Positions 8,980 through 35,256 of a DNA stretch of 37,419 bases are shown here, piece by piece (position 1 is the first letter of the stretch; each line of letters opens with the position of its first letter). The DNA is taken from the NCBI RefSeq assembly GCF_000381045.1, contig NZ_KB905748.1, forward strand, positions 1 to 37,419, given 5' to 3'. A program made the position numbers and the translations under genes. The notes beneath the pieces are model-generated. The model had not been told where the DNA came from. It saw only the letters and a list, made by a program, of their open reading frames with translations, and ran no database searches. Origin of the DNA: Thermus scotoductus DSM 8553. Its GTDB lineage: Bacteria > Deinococcota > Deinococci > Deinococcales > Thermaceae.

Positions 8980-9962
8980 TAGGCTCCCCCCCAGGTGAGG
9001 ACCGTGGCGGCCCAGGTGAGCCCGGCCCCGAAGGATACCAGAAGAACGTGATCGCCTTCTTGGATCCTGCCGTCCTCCACAGCTTCCTTGAGGGCCAGGG
9101 GGATGGAGGCGGTGGAGGTGTTGCCGTAGCGGTCCACGTTGACCACCACCCGTTCCCAGGGAAGGCCCAGGCGCTCCCTGGCGGCGTCGATGATGCGTAG
9201 GTTTGCCTGGTGGGGCACGAAGACCTTGATATCCTCCGGGGTGAGGCCGGCTTTTTCTATGGCCTCGAGGGTGGCGGTGTTCATCACCCGCACGGCGAAC
9301 TTGAAGACTTCCCGCCCGTTCATGTAGAGGCGGTTGCGCATGGAGGTCCCGTCGGGAAGCCTGGGGGCCACGCAGGCGTGGTAGAGCTCCTTGGCCCCGC
9401 TACCGTCCGCCCCCAGCACGAAGGAGCGGAAGCCGAAGCCCTCCCGCACCCGGCCCACCACCGCGGCCCCTCCCGCATCGCCAAAGAGCACCGCGGTGGC
9501 CCGGTCGTTCCAGTCCACGATCTTGGAAAGGGCCTCGGCCCCCACTACCAGGACCTTACGGGCCAGGCTCGCTTCCACCATGGCGTGGGCCTGGGCCAGG
9601 GCGTAAAGCCAGCCCGGGCAACCCGCCAACAGGTCGTAGGCGAAGCCCTGGATGCCGAAGCGGGCCTGCACCAAGGCGGCGGTGTTGGGGAAGAGGGCGT
9701 CGGGGGTGTTGGTGGCCACGATGACCCCGTCCACTCCTTCCAGAGCTCCTGGGTGGCGTCCAAGAAGGTCCTCCACCGCCTTGAAGGCCAGGTCCGAGGT
9801 GTACTCGTCCTCGGCGGCGATGCGCCGTTCCCGGATGCCGGTTCGGGTCACGATCCACTCATCCGAGGTGTCTAGATAGGCCTCAAAGTCCTCGTTCCTC
9901 AAGACCCTTTGGGGAACATACGCCCCCAGGGCCAGGATGCCCGACGCCTGACCTCCCGTCAT
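8979..9962 (-). CDS. fabH: 3-oxoacyl-ACP synthase III FabH
   Basis: 327 residues from the chosen start. FabH makes the first condensation, of acyl-CoA with malonyl-ACP, and its specificity sets straight versus branched chains. The triad is visible: C115 in AGCPGWLYA, H251 in FVPHQANLRII and N281 in YGNTSTASIP. The start is ATG 9960-9962 because a TATAGT -10 box ends 7 nt before it, giving a leaderless mRNA. An in-frame ATG at 9978-9980 lies upstream of that box and would add six residues not expected in the family. It is the first gene of the fab operon and follows the rpmF terminator. Confidence 0.93.
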   Translation of the reverse strand: MTGGQASGILALGAYVPQRVLRNEDFEAYLDTSDEWIVTRTGIRERRIAAEDEYTSDLAFKAVEDLLGRHPGALEGVDGVIVATNTPDALFPNTAALVQARFGIQGFAYDLLAGCPGWLYALAQAHAMVEASLARKVLVVGAEALSKIVDWNDRATAVLFGDAGGAAVVGRVREGFGFRSFVLGADGSGAKELYHACVAPRLPDGTSMRNRLYMNGREVFKFAVRVMNTATLEAIEKAGLTPEDIKVFVPHQANLRIIDAARERLGLPWERVVVNVDRYGNTSTASIPLALKEAVEDGRIQEGDHVLLVSFGAGLTWAATVLTWGGA

Positions 9963-9969
9963 GGGCACC

Positions 9970-9975
9970 ACTATA
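9970..9975 (-). promoter_or_regulatory. Leaderless -10 box for the fabHDG-acpP operon
   Basis: Minus-strand TATAGT, 7 nt before the fabH ATG at 9962. It decides between two in-frame ATGs. It lies directly behind the rpmF terminator. Confidence 0.55.
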
Positions 9976-9988
9976 CCCATTGGCAGTG

Positions 9989-10020
9989 AAAAAAGTTGAG
10001 GCCCAAGGTTCAGGGGCCCC
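9989..10020 (-). terminator. Intrinsic terminator after rpmF
   Basis: On the minus strand 10014-10020 pairs with 9998-10004 (7 bp with one G-U, 9-nt loop). A run of six T (complement of 9989-9994) follows after AAC. It ends the yceD-rpmF transcript 15 bp after the rpmF stop. Confidence 0.7.
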
Positions 10021-10035
10021 TTATCTTGACCCGAT

Positions 10036-10218
10036 CTAGACTTCCAGAACCTTGCGCCCGTCGTAGTAGCCGCACTCCGGGCAGACGGTGTGCGGGGGCT
10101 TCATGGCTTTGCACTCGGGGCAGGGGACCAGGGTCGGGGGGGTCAGGGCATGGTGGCTCCTGCGGGCATCGCGCCGCGCCTTTGAGGTCTTCTTCTTGGG
10201 TACAGGGTGTTTGGCCAT
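10036..10218 (-). CDS. rpmF: 50S ribosomal protein L32
   Basis: 60 residues, [17 protein letters not shown] at the N terminus and two CxxC pairs (C33/C36 and C46/C49) forming the zinc ribbon of the C+ form of L32. The start is ATG 10216-10218 behind GGAGG. A TTG two codons earlier is rejected because bacterial L32 begins MA(K/V). It follows yceD with a 58-bp gap, the near-universal yceD-rpmF pairing, and ends at an intrinsic terminator. Confidence 0.97.
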
Positions 10219-10276
10219 CTCCAATCCTCCAGGGGGGCTTGGCCCCCGCTAAACCCCTGGTAGTATAGCAGACCCG

Positions 10277-10813
10277 CTAGAGTTCGGGAAGGAGGTCCTT
10301 AAGGCCGAGGAGGGGATGGTGGACCTCCGGCTCGTGGCCGCAGTCCACCAGGTTGCGGTCCGCCCCGCACACCGGGCAGAGGCCCTTGCACCCTTCCTGG
10401 CAGAGGACGGTGTAGGGCATCTCCGTCACGAACGCCTCGGTGAGGAAGGGGAGAAGGTTCAGGTCGGGTGCGCCAAAGGTGTAGTACTCCTCCTCGGCCT
10501 CCTCGTGGAAGGTGAGGTCCTCGAGGCCCTGCTGGTAGCGGAGGAGGTGCTGGAAGTGGGCGTGGATGGGGGTGGGGGTGGGCTTGAGGCAGCGGCGGCA
10601 CTCCATGAGGACCACGCCCTCCACCTCACCCGAAAGCCAGTACTCATCCCCTCCCACGGCGGAGACCGCCACCTTCCAGGTGGCCTCTCCTTCCAAGGGG
10701 AAGCGCTCCTCGCCTACAAAGAAGGCTTCCTGGACCACGCCTGTGGCGCGGGCCGTGCCCCCTTCCCGCAGGAGGCGGGCCAGGTTGATGCTTGCCACCT
10801 CGCAGTGTTCCAC
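10277..10813 (-). CDS. yceD: YceD / DUF177 family protein
   Basis: 178 residues. The family is conserved next to rpmF and is linked to 23S rRNA or large-subunit maturation; the biochemical role is not firmly known. It has the family's central C72-x-x-C75 (MECRRCL) and a C-terminal cluster CQEGCKGLCPVCGADRN with C138, C142, C146 and C149, likely zinc-binding. The start chosen is GTG 10811-10813, 7 nt after a TATACT box. An alternative GTG five codons later would give a protein starting at ASINLARLL. It is divergent from the arginase gene. Confidence 0.88.
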   Translation of the reverse strand: MEHCEVASINLARLLREGGTARATGVVQEAFFVGEERFPLEGEATWKVAVSAVGGDEYWLSGEVEGVVLMECRRCLKPTPTPIHAHFQHLLRYQQGLEDLTFHEEAEEEYYTFGAPDLNLLPFLTEAFVTEMPYTVLCQEGCKGLCPVCGADRNLVDCGHEPEVHHPLLGLKDLLPEL

Positions 10814-28052: not shown

Positions 28053-28056
<4 letters not shown>

Positions 28057-28697
28057 CCCTTAAGCAGGGCCCTGAGCTCCCCGTAAAGCCGCTTGGTTTC
28101 CTCGGGGGTTTTGCCATAGCCGCCGTACCTGGTAACGATTTTGGCGGCCTCCTTGCCCAGGCCCTTTTCCTTGAGCCTTTCCAGAAGCTGGTCGATGAGC
28201 CGGTAGGCCTCGGGCTTTTCCTCCTCGAGGCCCTCCTCCTCGCCAGGGGAGGGTTCGGGCAGCTTGGGTGGGGTGAAGCGGCCCTTCTCCGGGTCGTAGT
28301 CCACCCACTGTTTCTCGAGGCGGTAGAGGTACCGGCCCACCCCGAACTTCACCGCAGCCCTCTTCAAGGCATCAGAGAAGGCCGCCTTCAGGGAATCCCC
28401 TTCCCCCACGTCCTCCTTGGTCACCCCCAGGACCGTGAGGCGGCACTTCACCTCCACCAGGCGTTCCCGCCGCTCCCCCCGCTCGTCCCTCACCGCACGC
28501 TCGGCGTCGGCCAGCACCTCGTAGGCGTCCTGCCACCCCTCGGGACCCACCACCCGGTCCAGCCGGTCCAAAACAGTGCGGGCATCCACATAGGGGACCA
28601 CCAGGGCGCGTTTTTTGTCCCGGGAGAGGGCCTCGATGCGCCACTGCACCTCGCCGGGGGGGAAGGGTTCGGAGAGTTTTTGCCAGACTTCGTCCAT
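28053..28697 (-). CDS. ddrA: DdrA-like Rad52/22-family DNA end-protection protein
   Basis: 214 residues. The N-terminal 130 residues match the Rad52/22 double-strand-break repair family, as in Deinococcus DdrA, which binds and protects 3' single-stranded DNA ends after damage. Key blocks are PYVDARTVLDRLDRVVGPEGWQ and VEVKCRLTVLGVTKEDVGEG, then the signature SLKAAFSDALKRAAVKFGVGRYLY. An acidic linker (EEEGLEEEKPE, about 156-166) joins to a C-terminal helical region. The ATG at 28695-28697 is 6 nt after a TACACT -10 box that lies in a perfect palindrome, so expression is probably controlled. It heads an operon with a phosphoesterase and rsmA. Confidence 0.88.
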
Positions 28698-29159: not shown

Positions 29160-29235
29160 GGGGCCGTGGCGCAGCTGGGAGCGCGCCTGAATCGCACTCA
29201 GGAGGTCACGGGTTCGAGTCCCGTCGGCTCCACCA
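29160..29235 (+). tRNA. tRNA-Ala (anticodon CGC)
   Basis: A complete 76-nt cloverleaf. The acceptor stem pairs 29160-29166 with 29225-29231 (one G-U). The anticodon stem CCTGA/TCAGG flanks the 7-nt loop ATCGCAC, giving anticodon CGC, which reads GCG alanine codons. The T arm has GGGTTCGAGTCCC, and the CCA end (29233-29235) is encoded. It marks the left edge of the defence island. Confidence 0.95.
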
Positions 29236-29429
29236 GCACCAGGACGATGCTTTCGCCCCCTGGGGGAGACTCCAGGGGGCGGCTGTGTAGCTATAGGTGT
29301 AGCAAAAGGCTAGGTGCCCCGGGTCCTAGGGAGGTAGTTCCCCTTTTGGAGGAGGAACCTACCGTGCCTCTCTTATTGATCTGCCTGTTGCCTGCCAACG
29401 GATTTTGGCGGACGGAAGCTACAGGTGGG
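29236..29429. other. Structured non-coding stretch between tRNA-Ala and darG
   Basis: Beyond the hairpin at 29254-29281 there is a second stem (29333-29341 with 29354-29363, one bulge). A third, large inverted repeat extends into darG (29387-29400 with 29447-29460). I find no credible ORF. It may be darG 3' UTR and terminator, an island boundary, or a small RNA. Confidence 0.45.
29254..29281. terminator. Perfect 10-bp hairpin after tRNA-Ala
   Basis: 29254-29263 pairs with 29272-29281 without mismatch around an 8-nt loop, 18 nt after the tRNA CCA. No T-tract follows on the plus strand, so it may be a T-less terminator or a 3' processing structure. Confidence 0.5.
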
Positions 29430-29460
29430 CTAGGCCTCTTGAGCCACGTTGGCGGGCAAC
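29387..29460. repeat. 14-bp imperfect inverted repeat across the darG 3' end
   Basis: 29387-29400 and 29447-29460 are inverse copies with 13 of 14 matching, separated by 46 bp. The right copy encodes part of the darG C terminus. No T-run follows on the minus strand. It could be an mRNA-stabilising hairpin or a scar of an inserted element. Confidence 0.6.
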
Positions 29461-30512
29461 TTGGGGGGGCGGTCCTGCCACTCTTCTGGGCGGAGGGCAC
29501 CCCGCTTTAGGAGGGCATCTAGGGCCACCTGAAGGTGGGTCTTGGGGAAGGTAGCCTTGCGAGGGTTCCAGGCTTGGAGCCCTTTTTGCAGGCTAGCCCA
29601 GTCCCGGGCTCCTTCGTGGCGTACGGCCCAGTGAACCGTGGCCAGGAGTTCTAGGCCGTAGGGGGTTTCAAATCCCTTGACCCAGTCCGCCGCCCGGGTA
29701 GCGGCTTCGTCGGCCTTGGGGTAGTCGGCGAGGAAGAGGACGGCCTCGTCCAAGGCCTGGAGTTTAAGGCGTATTTGGGAGACCCCCGTACGATCTCCGA
29801 AACCCTGGATATAGTGGCCCTCGAGGCGGGCTAGCACGTGGTTCAGGGGCTCGGCGTAGGGGCCAAACTGCTTGCGGGCGAAGTCAAGCTTTAGATCCAG
29901 GCCAGCTTCCTGCAGAAAGTAGGCCAGCTTCTGAGCCTCGAGGCGGCCCAAAGGCTCCCCCAATGCCCCGTATAGCCCGAAGAGCTTGAGTAGGGCAGCC
30001 CGTGCGGGGGTGAGGCGGGGCTTGGTTTTCAGAGGGACGATGGAGTGAGCTTTAGGGTTTTCTACTGGCTCGTAAACCCAAACCTCCACGCCCTCAAGGG
30101 TCTCGAGGGCCTCCTGAATACGTTGTTTGACCTCGGGCCAAGGCAGGCCTCCGTTCCCGGCCCCCAAAGGGGGCAGAGCGATAGAGCGGACCCGAAGCTC
30201 CTGGATCCGGCATACAAGGTCCTTGAGGCCCTCCTCTACGTATTCCATACGGGAAGGGTGGCGCCAGTGCTTCTTGGTGGGGAAGTTGAAGATGTAGCGG
30301 GGCTGGGCTAGGGGGCCCCGGTCGTAAACGAAGATGCGGCCAATCTGGACCTGGCCCCGCTCGCAGGCTTTCACGTAGGCCTGGTAGTTGTCTGGGAAAG
30401 CCCGTTTGAACTGCAAGGCCACCCCCTTGCCCATGACCCCCACGGTGTTCACCGTGTTCACCAGGGCTTCTACCGGGGCCTCGAGAAGGTTGCCTTGCAC
30501 GAAGCGGAGCAT
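29430..30512 (-). CDS. darG: DarG antitoxin (macrodomain DNA ADP-ribosylglycohydrolase)
   Basis: 360 residues in two parts. Residues 1-155 form a macrodomain: QGNLLEAPVEALVNTVNTVGVMGKG binds ADP-ribose, and FPTK80 and PPLGAGNGGLPW are conserved. The domain removes ADP-ribose from thymidine in DNA and so reverses DarT. K80 coincides with the catalytic lysine position I recall for T. aquaticus DarG. The C-terminal 190 residues form the second domain, which in this family binds and inhibits DarT directly (KLFGLYGALGEPLGRLEAQKLAYFLQEAGL and following). It starts 8 bp after the darT stop, an operon in the standard toxin-first order. Its 3' end lies in a large inverted repeat. Confidence 0.93.
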   Translation of the reverse strand: MLRFVQGNLLEAPVEALVNTVNTVGVMGKGVALQFKRAFPDNYQAYVKACERGQVQIGRIFVYDRGPLAQPRYIFNFPTKKHWRHPSRMEYVEEGLKDLVCRIQELRVRSIALPPLGAGNGGLPWPEVKQRIQEALETLEGVEVWVYEPVENPKAHSIVPLKTKPRLTPARAALLKLFGLYGALGEPLGRLEAQKLAYFLQEAGLDLKLDFARKQFGPYAEPLNHVLARLEGHYIQGFGDRTGVSQIRLKLQALDEAVLFLADYPKADEAATRAADWVKGFETPYGLELLATVHWAVRHEGARDWASLQKGLQAWNPRKATFPKTHLQVALDALLKRGALRPEEWQDRPPKLPANVAQEA

Positions 30513-30520
30513 AAGCGCTT

Positions 30521-31150
30521 CTAATAGTACCAGCTTCGGCGCACCCGCACCGGGGGATGGGGAAGATGGGGGAACTGGGCAAGGATGCTCTCCACCTGGG
30601 CCTGGATGGTTTCGTCCATCACACCGATTTCCTCAATCAGCTTCCACGGGAAAAGGTCCTTCACCAGGAACTCGGCCTGCTTTTTCTCGCGCACATTGGC
30701 CCAGTAAGAGGCCTGGATGGCTTGCCAGTCTAACGCTTTCAGGTGTTCTAGCTTATGGAAGAAGCGAACATACTGCACGGCCGCATGGCGGTCCGTGAAC
30801 ACGAAGGGGATGCGGGCTTCCGCCACCTTTTGCGCGGAGGAGACCAGGTGCAGGATAGGATGCTGGCCCCCTTGATAGTCGGTTTGTTGTGTGTGAATGG
30901 CGTAGAGCATTGGGGAACGGGGGCAGAAGTAAAACGGCACGTAATCGTGGAGCTTGCCTCTCGGGCCTACGGGTACCACGACTTGAGCGCGGCGGGCCTG
31001 GATGTGCCCGTAGGCCATGTTCTGCCGCACGGGAGGTCTTTTGGAGTAGGGGAGGAGGCCTCCTCTTTGAAGGATGCCCTGGAGGTTATTCAGGTGGGTG
31101 ATGTGGTAGATGAGCGTGGGCACCGGGTAGGCTAGGCCTTGCTGTGGCAT
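30521..31150 (-). CDS. darT: DarT toxin (DNA thymidine ADP-ribosyltransferase)
   Basis: 209 residues from the chosen start. DarT (DUF4433) transfers ADP-ribose from NAD+ to thymidine in single-stranded DNA, blocking replication; many act in anti-phage defence. YHITHLNNLQGILQRGGL (15-32) is the NAD-binding start, followed by AYGHIQARR (46-54), VPFYFCPRSPMLYAIH (71-86) and the catalytic glutamate E160 in KKQAEFLV. With this start E160 has the same number as the catalytic Glu I recall for Thermus DarT, which supports ATG 31148-31150. So does a TATAAT box 6 nt before it. The open frame to 31231 would run back through the promoter and into the divergent mod gene. Confidence 0.93.
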   Translation of the reverse strand: MPQQGLAYPVPTLIYHITHLNNLQGILQRGGLLPYSKRPPVRQNMAYGHIQARRAQVVVPVGPRGKLHDYVPFYFCPRSPMLYAIHTQQTDYQGGQHPILHLVSSAQKVAEARIPFVFTDRHAAVQYVRFFHKLEHLKALDWQAIQASYWANVREKKQAEFLVKDLFPWKLIEEIGVMDETIQAQVESILAQFPHLPHPPVRVRRSWYY

Positions 31151-31156
31151 GGTTCC

Positions 31157-31176
31157 ATTATATCCAGGGATATACT
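31157..31176. promoter_or_regulatory. Bidirectional promoter of darTG and Type III mod-res, with central palindrome
   Basis: Minus-strand TATAAT (31157-31162) lies 6 nt before the darT ATG. Plus-strand TATACT (31171-31176) lies 7 nt before the mod ATG. Only 8 bp separate the two -10 boxes. TATATCC-AG-GGATATA (31159-31174) is a perfect palindrome that overlaps both. RNA polymerase cannot occupy both at once, and one bound protein would control both operons. Confidence 0.7.
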
Positions 31177-31183
31177 CTTCTAC

Positions 31184-32776
31184 ATGCCAGCCCTGGAGTG
31201 GATCGGCAAGCGGGCGGTAGTGCGGCACCACTTGGAGGTTCCCTACCGCATTTTGGAGCCCGTGCCTAAACTCTCCTTCGGTGAGGGCGATAATCTTCTA
31301 GTGGAGGGGGACAACCTCGAGGCCCTAAAAGCCCTCCTCCCCCAGTACCGGGGGCGGGTGAAGCTGGTCTACATAGACCCTCCCTACAACACCGGCAACG
31401 AGGGCTGGGTCTACAACGACAACGTGAACAGCCCCGAGATACGGGACTGGCTGGGGAAGGTGGTGGGCCCGGAGGCTGAAGACCTCTCCCGGCACGACAA
31501 GTGGCTTTCCATGATGTACCCCAGGCTGAGGCTTTTGCACGAGCTCTTGCGGGAGGACGGAAGCCTTTGGATGAGCATTGACGACAACGAGGTCCACCGA
31601 GCGAGGATGCTCCTGGACGAAATCTTTGGACCACAGAACTTTATAGCTACAGTGATCTGGCAGAAGAAGTTTTCCCTCCAGAACGATGCCACCTACTTCT
31701 CCGACATGCACGATTACATCTTAGTCTACGCTAAGCGAAAAAAGTTCCATAGTAATGACCCCGCAGGGTGGACTTTAAACAAGCTTCCACCCACCCCGGA
31801 GAAGGTAGGCCGCTACCAAAATCTGGATAACGACCCGAGAGGCCCTTGGCAATCAGTAGACTACACATGCGCAAAAACTAAAGAAGAGCGACCCAATCTT
31901 TACTACCCCATCGTCAATCCCAACACCGGCGAGGAGATCTGGCCGTCCCCCACCCGGGTCTGGGCCTTTTCGCGCGAGGAGCACGAGCGCCACCTAAGGG
32001 AGAACCGCATATGGTGGGGGAAAGATGGCAGGGGAAGGCCCCGGATCAAGAAGTTTTTGAGCGAGGTCCAGGCCACCATGGTGCCCACCACGCTTTGGTT
32101 GCGGGAGGATGTTGGGGACACCCAGGAAGCCCGCAGAGAGGTGCGCCAGACCCTGGAAGGAGAGGACTTCCCCACCCCTAAACCCACCCGCCTTCTCCAG
32201 CGGATTCTGCAGATCGCCACTAACCCCCATGACGGGGACATCGTCCTGGACTCCTTCGCCGGTAGCGGCACCACGGGGCACGCGGTGCTCAAGCAAAACG
32301 CCGCCGACGGAGGCAACCGGCGCTTCATCCTGGTGGAGCTGGACCCCCACATTGCCCAGAACATCACCCGGAGGCGTCTGGAGTATGCCGCCCGGGAACA
32401 CGGGAGCGGCTTTCAGTACCTGCGCCTAGGCGAGACCCTCTTCACGCCGGATGGGCGAATCCGGGAGGGAGTGGACTACCTGACCTTGGCCCGGTACGTC
32501 TACTACCGGGAGACGGGGGAACCCCTGCCTTCCACCATCAGCCCGCCCCTTCTTGGGGTGTCCCAGCGCGGGGTGGCGGTTTACCTACTCTACAACGGGG
32601 TGCTCAAGGACCGGTCTCCCAAAGGGGGCAACGCCCTTACCCGGGAGGTCCTGGCCCACCTGCCTCCCCATGACGGCCCCAAGGTGGTCTACGGCACCTC
32701 CTGCCGCCTGAACCCGGCGACCCTGACGGCGTGGGGCATCACCTTTCGGCACATCCCCTACGAGGTGGCCCAGTGA
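31184..32776 (+). CDS. mod: Type III R-M modification subunit (adenine-N6 methyltransferase)
   Basis: 530 residues. The order is that of beta-class Mod proteins: EGDNLEALKALLPQYRG then motif IV IDPPYNTGNE (64-73). A central target-recognition region follows at about 130-330, then the SAM motif DSFAGSGTTGH (from residue 356). DPPY indicates N6-adenine methylation. Mod provides the recognition for the Res partner encoded next. The start is ATG 31184, 7 nt after TATACT; an earlier ATG at 31139 would run through the divergent darT promoter. The region 31,630-31,930 is visibly AT-richer than its surroundings, suggesting an exchanged recognition module. The stop overlaps the res start (TGATG). Confidence 0.9.
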   Translation: MPALEWIGKRAVVRHHLEVPYRILEPVPKLSFGEGDNLLVEGDNLEALKALLPQYRGRVKLVYIDPPYNTGNEGWVYNDNVNSPEIRDWLGKVVGPEAEDLSRHDKWLSMMYPRLRLLHELLREDGSLWMSIDDNEVHRARMLLDEIFGPQNFIATVIWQKKFSLQNDATYFSDMHDYILVYAKRKKFHSNDPAGWTLNKLPPTPEKVGRYQNLDNDPRGPWQSVDYTCAKTKEERPNLYYPIVNPNTGEEIWPSPTRVWAFSREEHERHLRENRIWWGKDGRGRPRIKKFLSEVQATMVPTTLWLREDVGDTQEARREVRQTLEGEDFPTPKPTRLLQRILQIATNPHDGDIVLDSFAGSGTTGHAVLKQNAADGGNRRFILVELDPHIAQNITRRRLEYAAREHGSGFQYLRLGETLFTPDGRIREGVDYLTLARYVYYRETGEPLPSTISPPLLGVSQRGVAVYLLYNGVLKDRSPKGGNALTREVLAHLPPHDGPKVVYGTSCRLNPATLTAWGITFRHIPYEVAQ

Positions 32777-35256
32777 TGGAGCTCAAGAGCTACCAGAAGG
32801 AGGACCTGAGGGCACTGGAGGACTTCCTCCATCGGGTAGGCGCCTACGAAAAGGATCTGCCCAACTTCCTGGATCAGGCCTTCCGGGAGGTGGCCGCGCG
32901 GTACATGGAAAACCCTCCTCCCTACCTGGAGCCGAAGGGCCTCGAGGGCATCCCCTACGTGTGCTTCCGCATCCCCACGGGCGGGGGCAAGACCCTTCTC
33001 GCGGCCCACGCTCTGGCCCCGGCCCGGCGCTTTTTGGGCCAGGATGCCCCTATGGTGGTCTGGCTCACCCCCACCGAGGCTATCCGCACCCAGACTCTGA
33101 AGGCCCTCAAGGACACGCGCCACCCCTACCGCCAAGCCCTTGAGCAGGCCTTAGGCCAGGTGCGGGTCATGGACCTGCAAGAGGCCCTGGCCCTGCCCCC
33201 GGGGGACGTGGGCGCGGTGGCCCTGGTCATGGTGGCTACCCTGCAGGCTTTCCGGGTAGAGGAGACCGAGGGGCGCAAGGTTTACGAGGAAAACGGACAT
33301 CTCATGGGCGTTTTTGACCTGCTGGCCGGATCGGTGCCGGAAGATAAGCTGGCGCCTCCCGAGGGGATAGGAAGGTACTCCCTGGCCAACCTCCTCCGCA
33401 TCATGCGCCCCATCGTGGTGGTGGACGAGGCCCACAACGCCCGCACCCCCCTTTCCTTTGACACCCTGGCCCGCCTGGAACCCGGGGTCATCCTGGAGTT
33501 CACGGCCACCCCCAGGGAGGACTCCAACGTTCTCTTTGCCGCCACCGCCCATGAGCTCCACCGGGAGGGCATGATCAAGCTACCCATAGAGCTCGTGGTC
33601 CTGAAGGACCAGGAGGCGGTCCTCCAGGCGGCTATGGCCAAACAGAAGGAGCTTGAGGCCCTGGCCCAAAGAGGCCGGGAGTACCTCCGGCCCATCGTCC
33701 TCATCCAAGCGGAGCCCCGGCGTGGGGGGGATCCGTACACCTGGGAAAAGGTGAGGGCCTTTCTACTGGAGCGCGGGGTGCGGGAGGAGGAGGTGGTGGT
33801 CTCCGTGGGGGAGCGGGATGACCTCACCGGCCAAGACCTCCTTTCGCCCTCCTCGCCCGTGCGCTACGTCATCACCGTAGACAAGCTCAAGGAGGGATGG
33901 GACTGCCCCTTCGCTTACGTGCTGGCCTCGGTGCGTCCCCTGAAGTCGCCCACGGCCATTGAGCAGGTGCTGGGCCGGGTGCTCAGGATGCCGGGGGCCA
34001 GGCCCAAGGAGCAGGAAGCGCTCAACAAGGCCTACGCTTTCACCGTGTCCGAGAACTTCTGGGAGGCGGCGGAAACCCTCCGGGAGGCTTTGGTTCTGGA
34101 GGGGTTTGAGCGCTACGAGGCCGAAAGGACCGTGCGCACCGTGGGCCTTGGCTTGGAGGAACGCATTCACCTCGAGGCATCCCCTAGTCCCTTAGCCCTC
34201 GCTCCCTTGGGGCCAAAGGTGGAATACGATCCAAAAGTTAGGGTGCTGGTCATCAAGGAGCCCCTGAACCCCAGTGAGAGGGCGGTACTCCGACAGGCTT
34301 TAGCGGAGAAGGATCGGCAGAAGCTTCCCCACACCGTCCGCACCCCCTCCGAGGAAGGCCGGGTGCTGGAGGTGCCCCTCCTCGCCTGGCATGGAGAGCC
34401 CCTGGAGGTTGAGCACTTCCTGGAGGAGGGTTGGAGCCTAGCGGGCCGGGACGCTCACCTGGACTTTGTTCCCCAGCCCCTGGGGGAAAGAGGGGAGATC
34501 GGCCTAGATGGGGGGCGGGTGCGCATCGCCCGCCTGGAGCGGCTGGACCAGGCCGGGAGGCTCTTTGGTTCCCACGTGGGCTGGACCTTGGATAGCCTTG
34601 CCCTCTGGCTGGACCGCCACATTCCCCACCCCGACCTACCCCAGGAGGAGACCTTGCCCTTCATCTACAGGGCCCTAGGAGAGCTTTTGGGGCGAGGCTT
34701 TACCCTAGAGGACCTGGTGGCGGAGAAGAGGCAGTTGAGGAACCTCCTAGAGGCCAAGATCCGCGGCCACCGGGAGGCGGCCCAAAAGGAAGCCTTCCAA
34801 CGCCTCTTGAAAGATACGCCTCCCAACCTCGGCACCATCACGCTTCGCTTGGAAGGGGACTACTTCCCGCCCAACCCCTACCGGGGGGCTTATGACTTCC
34901 AAAAGCACTTCTTCCCGGTCATCGCCGATCTCCAGGACGGAACGGAGGAGTTCCAGTGCGCCCGCCTCCTGGACGGGCTGGAGGAAGTGGAGTTCTGGGT
35001 GCGCAACTACCCTACCTGGCGCCACGCCTTCCGCCTTCCCTACCCCGGGGGCAACTTCTTCCCGGACTTTCTGGCCAGGCTGCGAGACGGGACCCTCCTC
35101 GTGTTGGAGTACAAGGGAAAGCATCTGGCGCACACCCCCGAGACCTACGAGAAGGAGGCCGTGGGGCAACTCTGGGCCCAGAAGACGGGCAACCTGTTCC
35201 TTATGGTGCGCACGCTTGATGGGCTGAACGCCATTTACCAGGCGGTTCGGCGCTGA
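32776..35256 (+). CDS. res: Type III R-M restriction subunit (helicase-nuclease Res)
   Basis: 826 residues. An SF2 helicase core has Walker A PTGGGKT (67-73), DEAH (217-220), FTATPRED (motif III region) and motif VI EQVLGRVLRMPG (from about 396). The C terminus carries a PD-(D/E)xK nuclease, with D764 in FPDFL, E778 and K780 in LEYKGK. All parts needed for ATP-dependent cleavage between head-to-head recognition sites appear intact. The ATG shares its A with the mod stop codon TGA, so translation is coupled. It ends 10 bp from the convergent TPR gene with no terminator visible. Confidence 0.92.
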   Translation: MELKSYQKEDLRALEDFLHRVGAYEKDLPNFLDQAFREVAARYMENPPPYLEPKGLEGIPYVCFRIPTGGGKTLLAAHALAPARRFLGQDAPMVVWLTPTEAIRTQTLKALKDTRHPYRQALEQALGQVRVMDLQEALALPPGDVGAVALVMVATLQAFRVEETEGRKVYEENGHLMGVFDLLAGSVPEDKLAPPEGIGRYSLANLLRIMRPIVVVDEAHNARTPLSFDTLARLEPGVILEFTATPREDSNVLFAATAHELHREGMIKLPIELVVLKDQEAVLQAAMAKQKELEALAQRGREYLRPIVLIQAEPRRGGDPYTWEKVRAFLLERGVREEEVVVSVGERDDLTGQDLLSPSSPVRYVITVDKLKEGWDCPFAYVLASVRPLKSPTAIEQVLGRVLRMPGARPKEQEALNKAYAFTVSENFWEAAETLREALVLEGFERYEAERTVRTVGLGLEERIHLEASPSPLALAPLGPKVEYDPKVRVLVIKEPLNPSERAVLRQALAEKDRQKLPHTVRTPSEEGRVLEVPLLAWHGEPLEVEHFLEEGWSLAGRDAHLDFVPQPLGERGEIGLDGGRVRIARLERLDQAGRLFGSHVGWTLDSLALWLDRHIPHPDLPQEETLPFIYRALGELLGRGFTLEDLVAEKRQLRNLLEAKIRGHREAAQKEAFQRLLKDTPPNLGTITLRLEGDYFPPNPYRGAYDFQKHFFPVIADLQDGTEEFQCARLLDGLEEVEFWVRNYPTWRHAFRLPYPGGNFFPDFLARLRDGTLLVLEYKGKHLAHTPETYEKEAVGQLWAQKTGNLFLMVRTLDGLNAIYQAVRR

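Follow-up and report, generated by a model that had tools for sequence, protein, structure and literature searches.

We analysed a stretch of 37,419 nucleotides from Thermus scotoductus DSM 8553, hereafter the window, which makes up a whole contig and in which the genes of a DarTG toxin-antitoxin pair and those of a Type III restriction-modification system lie back to back. The genes, and the block that they form together with its counterpart in another genome of the genus (G048), are as follows.

29430..30512, minus strand: darG, a macrodomain antitoxin of 360 aa (NF048014, E 4.3e-125; PDB 5m31, the T. aquaticus DarG macrodomain, E 9e-102)
30521..31150, minus strand: darT, a DNA ADP-ribosyltransferase toxin of 209 aa (NF048013, E 3.7e-72; PF14487; PDB 7omv, E 1.2e-78; catalytic Glu160 position present)
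31184..32776, plus strand: mod, a Type III DNA methyltransferase subunit of 530 aa (PADLOC MTase_III, E 1.7e-193; EcoP15I Mod, 4zcf, E 2e-43; DPPY at residue 65)
32773..35256, plus strand: res, a Type III restriction subunit of 827 aa (PF04851; PADLOC REase_III, E 2.7e-116; GGGKT, DEAH and a C-terminal PD...EYK)
29425..35216, no strand: four-gene block darG-darT<>mod-res, in common with G048, where it lies at another chromosomal site (blastn, 83-86% identity, abrupt borders at the gene ends, with a gap in the middle region of Mod)

Both DarT and DarG score above the cut-offs of their family models (NF048013 and NF048014), E160 of DarT lies within a QAEF motif and darG adjoins darT, and a toxin with its catalytic Glu beside a macrodomain antitoxin marks the pair as a DarTG system by sequence. 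Likewise, a Mod subunit with DPPY and FxGxG-type motifs is followed by a Res helicase-nuclease, as in Type III restriction-modification systems. All four genes read as intact in the window. The start codon of darT is backed by its ATG and MPQQ, which are kept in G048 and in three further genomes of the genus (G029, G039 and G040), and that of mod by its MPxLxWIGK, which aligns from residue 1 with viral-contig Mods of about 50% identity. The closest named DarT relative found belongs to Thermus sp. 2.9 (L002). Gene calls and family scans of the block revealed no regulator gene, nor was a small repressor gene of the RptR type called there. In DarG, no DNA-binding domain model was matched, the matches being confined to the macrodomain and the DarG C-terminal region.

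The region between darT and mod contains the following features.

31151..31183, no strand: intergenic region with two predicted divergent, leaderless core promoters; of equal length in G048, G029 and G039
31157..31162, minus strand: darT -10 box, TATAAT, with the ATG 6 nt downstream; unchanged in the same three genomes
31159..31174, no strand: 16-bp palindrome TATATCC-AG-GGATATA, assessed below against these relatives and a null model
31171..31176, plus strand: mod -10 box, TATACT, with the ATG 7 nt downstream; unchanged in the same three genomes

The ATG codons of darT (31150, minus strand) and mod (31184, plus strand) are separated by 33 bp. On the minus strand TATAAT (31162-31157) is followed by GGAACC and the darT ATG, and on the plus strand TATACT (31171-31176) is followed by CTTCTAC and the mod ATG. 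The opposing -10 boxes flank an 8-bp spacer (31163-31170), and the palindrome, which has no mismatch, covers part of both boxes. The geometry given in the initial annotation, with start codons 33 bp apart, -10 boxes 8 bp apart and a palindrome overlapping both, is thus exact in the sequence. No Shine-Dalgarno sequence was found at darT or mod, and neither gene has a convincing -35 box (at most 3/6 matches by eye; a sigma-70 scan placed no site here). The 33 bp contain no TAGCTA, the site repeated in the RptR-controlled island that is compared below. Both genes therefore show the -10-adjacent leaderless pattern, that is, TANNNT 6-7 nt before the start codon and no Shine-Dalgarno sequence, and the leaderless transcripts proposed for them earlier are probable on these grounds. 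The predicted transcription starts would lie about 33-34 bp apart.

This promoter class has been described: in Deinococcus-Thermus, a -10 motif lies 6-7 nt before the ORF, giving leaderless transcripts, in about 30% of ORFs (PMC12340547). The darT and mod promoters resemble it in having TANNNT 6-7 nt before the ATG, no Shine-Dalgarno sequence and no need of a -35 box, but here two of them stand head to head, and divergent or bidirectional arrangements go unmentioned in the text of that study. To estimate how frequent the layout is, we called genes in 800 kb of G048 by a simple codon-usage method, which makes the numbers approximate. TANNNT occurs 5-8 nt before the start of 207 of the 757 called genes, as compared to 51-56 at control offsets of 20-30 nt. 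The 800 kb include 118 adjacent divergent pairs; a box on each side within 85 bp was seen in about 25 of them, and within 38 bp in 14, and the boxes overlap in many of the close pairs.

The divergent arrangement, the search for which the initial annotation had suggested, recurs in G048, G029 and G039, each time with 33 bp between the darT and mod starts. These genomes are about 98% identical around the locus, and thus amount to roughly one independent lineage. All three have the same 33 bp, in which five positions depart from the window: three lie in the 8-bp spacer and two directly before the mod ATG. Neither of the -10 boxes is affected, nor is GGAACC. The palindrome, in contrast, reads TATACCTGGGGATATA in the relatives as against TATATCCAGGGATATA in the window, and two of its three pairs outside the TATA are broken. 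The relatives therefore keep the promoter pair and its spacing, not the symmetry; where the gene pair recurs, the palindrome is lost in 3/3 cases, against the shared control that had been read into it. In G040, darT is frameshifted and its -10 box is altered.

Judged against shuffled DNA, the palindrome is more than chance would give: random sequence is expected to yield 0.21 matches per window at up to 3 mismatches, and the actual site has 0. However, we preferred a null of two divergent Thermus leaderless promoters to one of random sequence, and drew random pairs from 182 observed promoters of this kind, set 8 bp apart. At least 7/8 symmetric pairs arose in 2.1% of the random promoter pairs, and in 9.5% when both boxes were TATA. 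Head-to-head Thermus promoters are partly palindromic by construction, because all their -10 boxes start with TA and tend to have G immediately upstream. The window palindrome is more perfect than those of the sampled divergent pairs, and a lineage-specific use of it may exist.

A scan of 27 genomes of the genus, with one mismatch allowed, returned the darT/mod site, one site in G040 and one site common to five genomes, namely that of the window (G000:C6:2913-2928; L201 2505-2538), G025, G026, G030 and G044. In the genome of the window, this last site lies between a hemQ-like gene (chlorite-dismutase family, PF06778) and mscS, where TATATT and TATACT, with 8 bp between them and an ATG 6 nt downstream of each, form a near palindrome, TATACCCGGGGATATA, with a 15/16 match to the pattern. 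The same design at these genes shows that the layout is used by unrelated genes. The palindrome at darT/mod is probably a side effect of placing two promoters head to head; its reading as a conserved operator is rejected on the evidence of the relatives, of the Thermus-promoter null and of the recurrence at hemQ-like/mscS.

We therefore consider it very likely that the locus holds two separate, weak, sigma-A-type leaderless promoters placed back to back, with a palindrome that is not an operator, in a cassette that moves as a block. Each promoter would consist of a TANNNT -10 box 6-7 nt before the ATG, with neither a good -35 box nor a ribosome-binding site, one driving darT-darG and the opposite one mod-res. 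RNA polymerase would occupy one orientation at a time, so that initiation events compete sterically; at ordinary promoter strength, expression of both sides would probably be low and more or less constitutive. The palindrome would derive from the TATA in both boxes and the G-rich upstream context usual in Thermus promoters, and the two modules would stay linked as one compact cassette. We infer promoter activity, leaderless 5' ends, polymerase competition and constitutive expression at darT/mod from the DNA itself. Of the single palindromic bidirectional promoter first proposed, the overlapping divergent promoters stand, whereas the palindrome as a shared operator, broken in the relatives and part of a layout that recurs at unrelated genes, is not supported.

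The nucleotide homology with G048 (29425-35216) runs from just beyond the darG stop to close to the res stop and is abrupt at both ends. In the window, the cassette sits between tRNA-Ala(cgc) and the gene of a TPR protein, as does a decayed copy in G040, whereas in G048, G029 and G039 it lies at another site, near tRNA-Arg(cct). Given two chromosomal sites and sharp ends, the cassette has moved or been exchanged as a block, and darTG<>mod-res is a mobile four-gene cassette. Integration by duplication of a tRNA 3' end was considered; some 190 bp separate the tRNA-Ala end from the start of the shared block, and the sole tRNA match between the two sites reflects general tRNA similarity. No copy of the whole cassette was found in plasmid and phage collections, and no darT accompanies the viral-contig Mod relatives within the flanks examined.

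The junction of tRNA-Ala(cgc) and the TPR gene (window 29160-29235 to 35267) is an insertion site, occupied here and in G040; in several other Thermus genomes (L156, L168, L171, L172, L173 and L175), tRNA and TPR gene are direct neighbours, only a short stretch apart. A gene of the Rad52/Rad22 family (PF04098; window 28053-28697) is separated from the cassette by the tRNA and keeps its synteny in G040.

The copies in the relatives are damaged in different ways. G029 and G039 have kept mod (92% identical) as well as res, the res of G039 having an apparent frameshift. Beside the kept mod, two deletions have reduced darT and darG to stubs (L102 10025-10274; L103 7534-7783) comprising darT 1-27, darG 3-30 and darG 333-360. 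In G048, both darT and darG are open, and mod is interrupted near its 3' end by a transposase-bearing element (IS). This element (L101 about 9350-10520) is about 1.15 kb long, has inverted ends (GAGCTCTCATCACTTT) and carries a transposase-like ORF of 365 aa. In G040, mod and most of res are lost and darG remains open beside the frameshifted darT. The halves of the cassette thus decay independently.

The middle region of Mod, which is likely to be the target-recognition region, cannot be aligned at the DNA level between G048 (L101 8388-8912) and G029/G039 (L102/L103), while its flanks are about 98% identical, and a swap of the Mod recognition domain between these genomes is likely. Regulation by Mod of its own promoter is disfavoured, the 33 bp being identical in G048 and G029/G039 despite their differing Mod middle regions.

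It has been suggested that the cassette is a combined restriction and abortive-infection unit. In such a unit, DarTG would serve as a back-up or as an addictive stabiliser of the restriction genes. The presence of the sharp-ended block at two chromosomal sites is consistent with this, as is the order darT-darG-mod-res, all on one strand, at a locus of a Lysobacteraceae MAG (L018). We nonetheless regard one functional unit as rather unlikely, since mod survives beside the darTG stubs in G029 and G039, and darTG or darG remains open beside an interrupted mod in G048 and a lost one in G040. Elsewhere in the Thermaceae, darTG occurs in six genomes that have no close Mod relative, and a Mod relative occurs in four that have no darT. 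Across bacteria, a Mod relative is near only 2 of 80 darT loci, L018 being one of them, and neither is divergent from darT. What holds of the suggestion is that the block relocates as one; an obligate unit is not supported, the halves being lost independently.

That competition between polymerases alone acts as a switch, the stronger side silencing the other so that toxin and restriction are expressed alternately, is improbable. The boxes are only 8 bp apart and polymerase footprints overlap, and an E. coli bidirectional promoter that is strongly activated in one direction is repressed in the other (PMC12825309). However, the basal activity of the E. coli promoters tested in that study is too low for either direction to affect the other, and at darT/mod both promoters lack good -35 boxes and neither an activator site nor an activator gene was found. 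The E. coli examples are alike in having divergent starts too close for two polymerases and a near-symmetric -10 sequence, but they share their -10 elements and have opposing starts 10-23 bp apart, whereas the darT and mod boxes are separate and do not overlap and the expected starts are about 33-34 bp apart. The absence of cross-effects at basal strength also runs counter to the statement in the initial annotation that transcription of darTG and mod-res must be mutually exclusive or jointly controlled.

Least probable of all is a palindromic operator at which DarG, the DarT-DarG complex, Mod or a host repressor, bound as a dimer, would repress both gene pairs jointly or switch them together: its perfect 7-bp arms reach into both -10 boxes and there is a precedent in RptR, yet none of the three relatives that retain the pair has the palindrome intact, a similar site lies between the unrelated hemQ-like and mscS genes, the cassette has no regulator gene and DarG matches no DNA-binding domain model. 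RptR is a repressor that acts on a palindrome over the -10 box in a DarTG2/Type I restriction-modification island of EPEC (PMC12255303), and by this analogy an operator at darT/mod would be reasonable in kind. Both loci place DarTG beside restriction-modification genes and palindromes over a -10 box, but the EPEC island is of Type I, runs in one direction and has a dedicated repressor gene and repeated 6-bp sites, whereas that of the window is of Type III, is divergent and has no repressor gene. We give equally little credence to a version limited to the lineage of the window, in which a protein of the cassette, DarG and the DarTG complex being the most plausible candidates, would repress both leaderless promoters through the sharpened palindrome. 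If it were true, loss of the antitoxin during infection would induce the toxin-antitoxin pair and the Type III enzymes simultaneously.

Leaderless -10-adjacent promoters, closely opposed divergent promoters and the linkage of DarTG to restriction genes have all been described. The insertion of DarTG in Type I restriction-modification operons, that of T. aquaticus included, was noted in 2016 (PMC5179494); the physical linkage is alike, but in the window the system is of Type III and the two modules are back to back. The Thermus phage phiMa carries a related darT-darG (MH673674, PMC11437467; 73% nucleotide identity), which has no mod-res alongside and in which, unlike in the window, a leader containing GGAGG separates the TATAAT of darT from the ATG. 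A search of titles and abstracts found no description of a mobile DarTG and Type III cassette with divergent halves. The cassette is a variation on the Type I case of 2016.

With this cassette, a Type III system joins the known cases of DarTG physically linked to restriction genes, and the natural deletion and insertion variants of the cassette indicate that either half can go while the other remains open. Head-to-head leaderless promoters are a normal layout in Thermus, and palindromes over opposing -10 boxes should therefore not be called operators without cross-species comparison.
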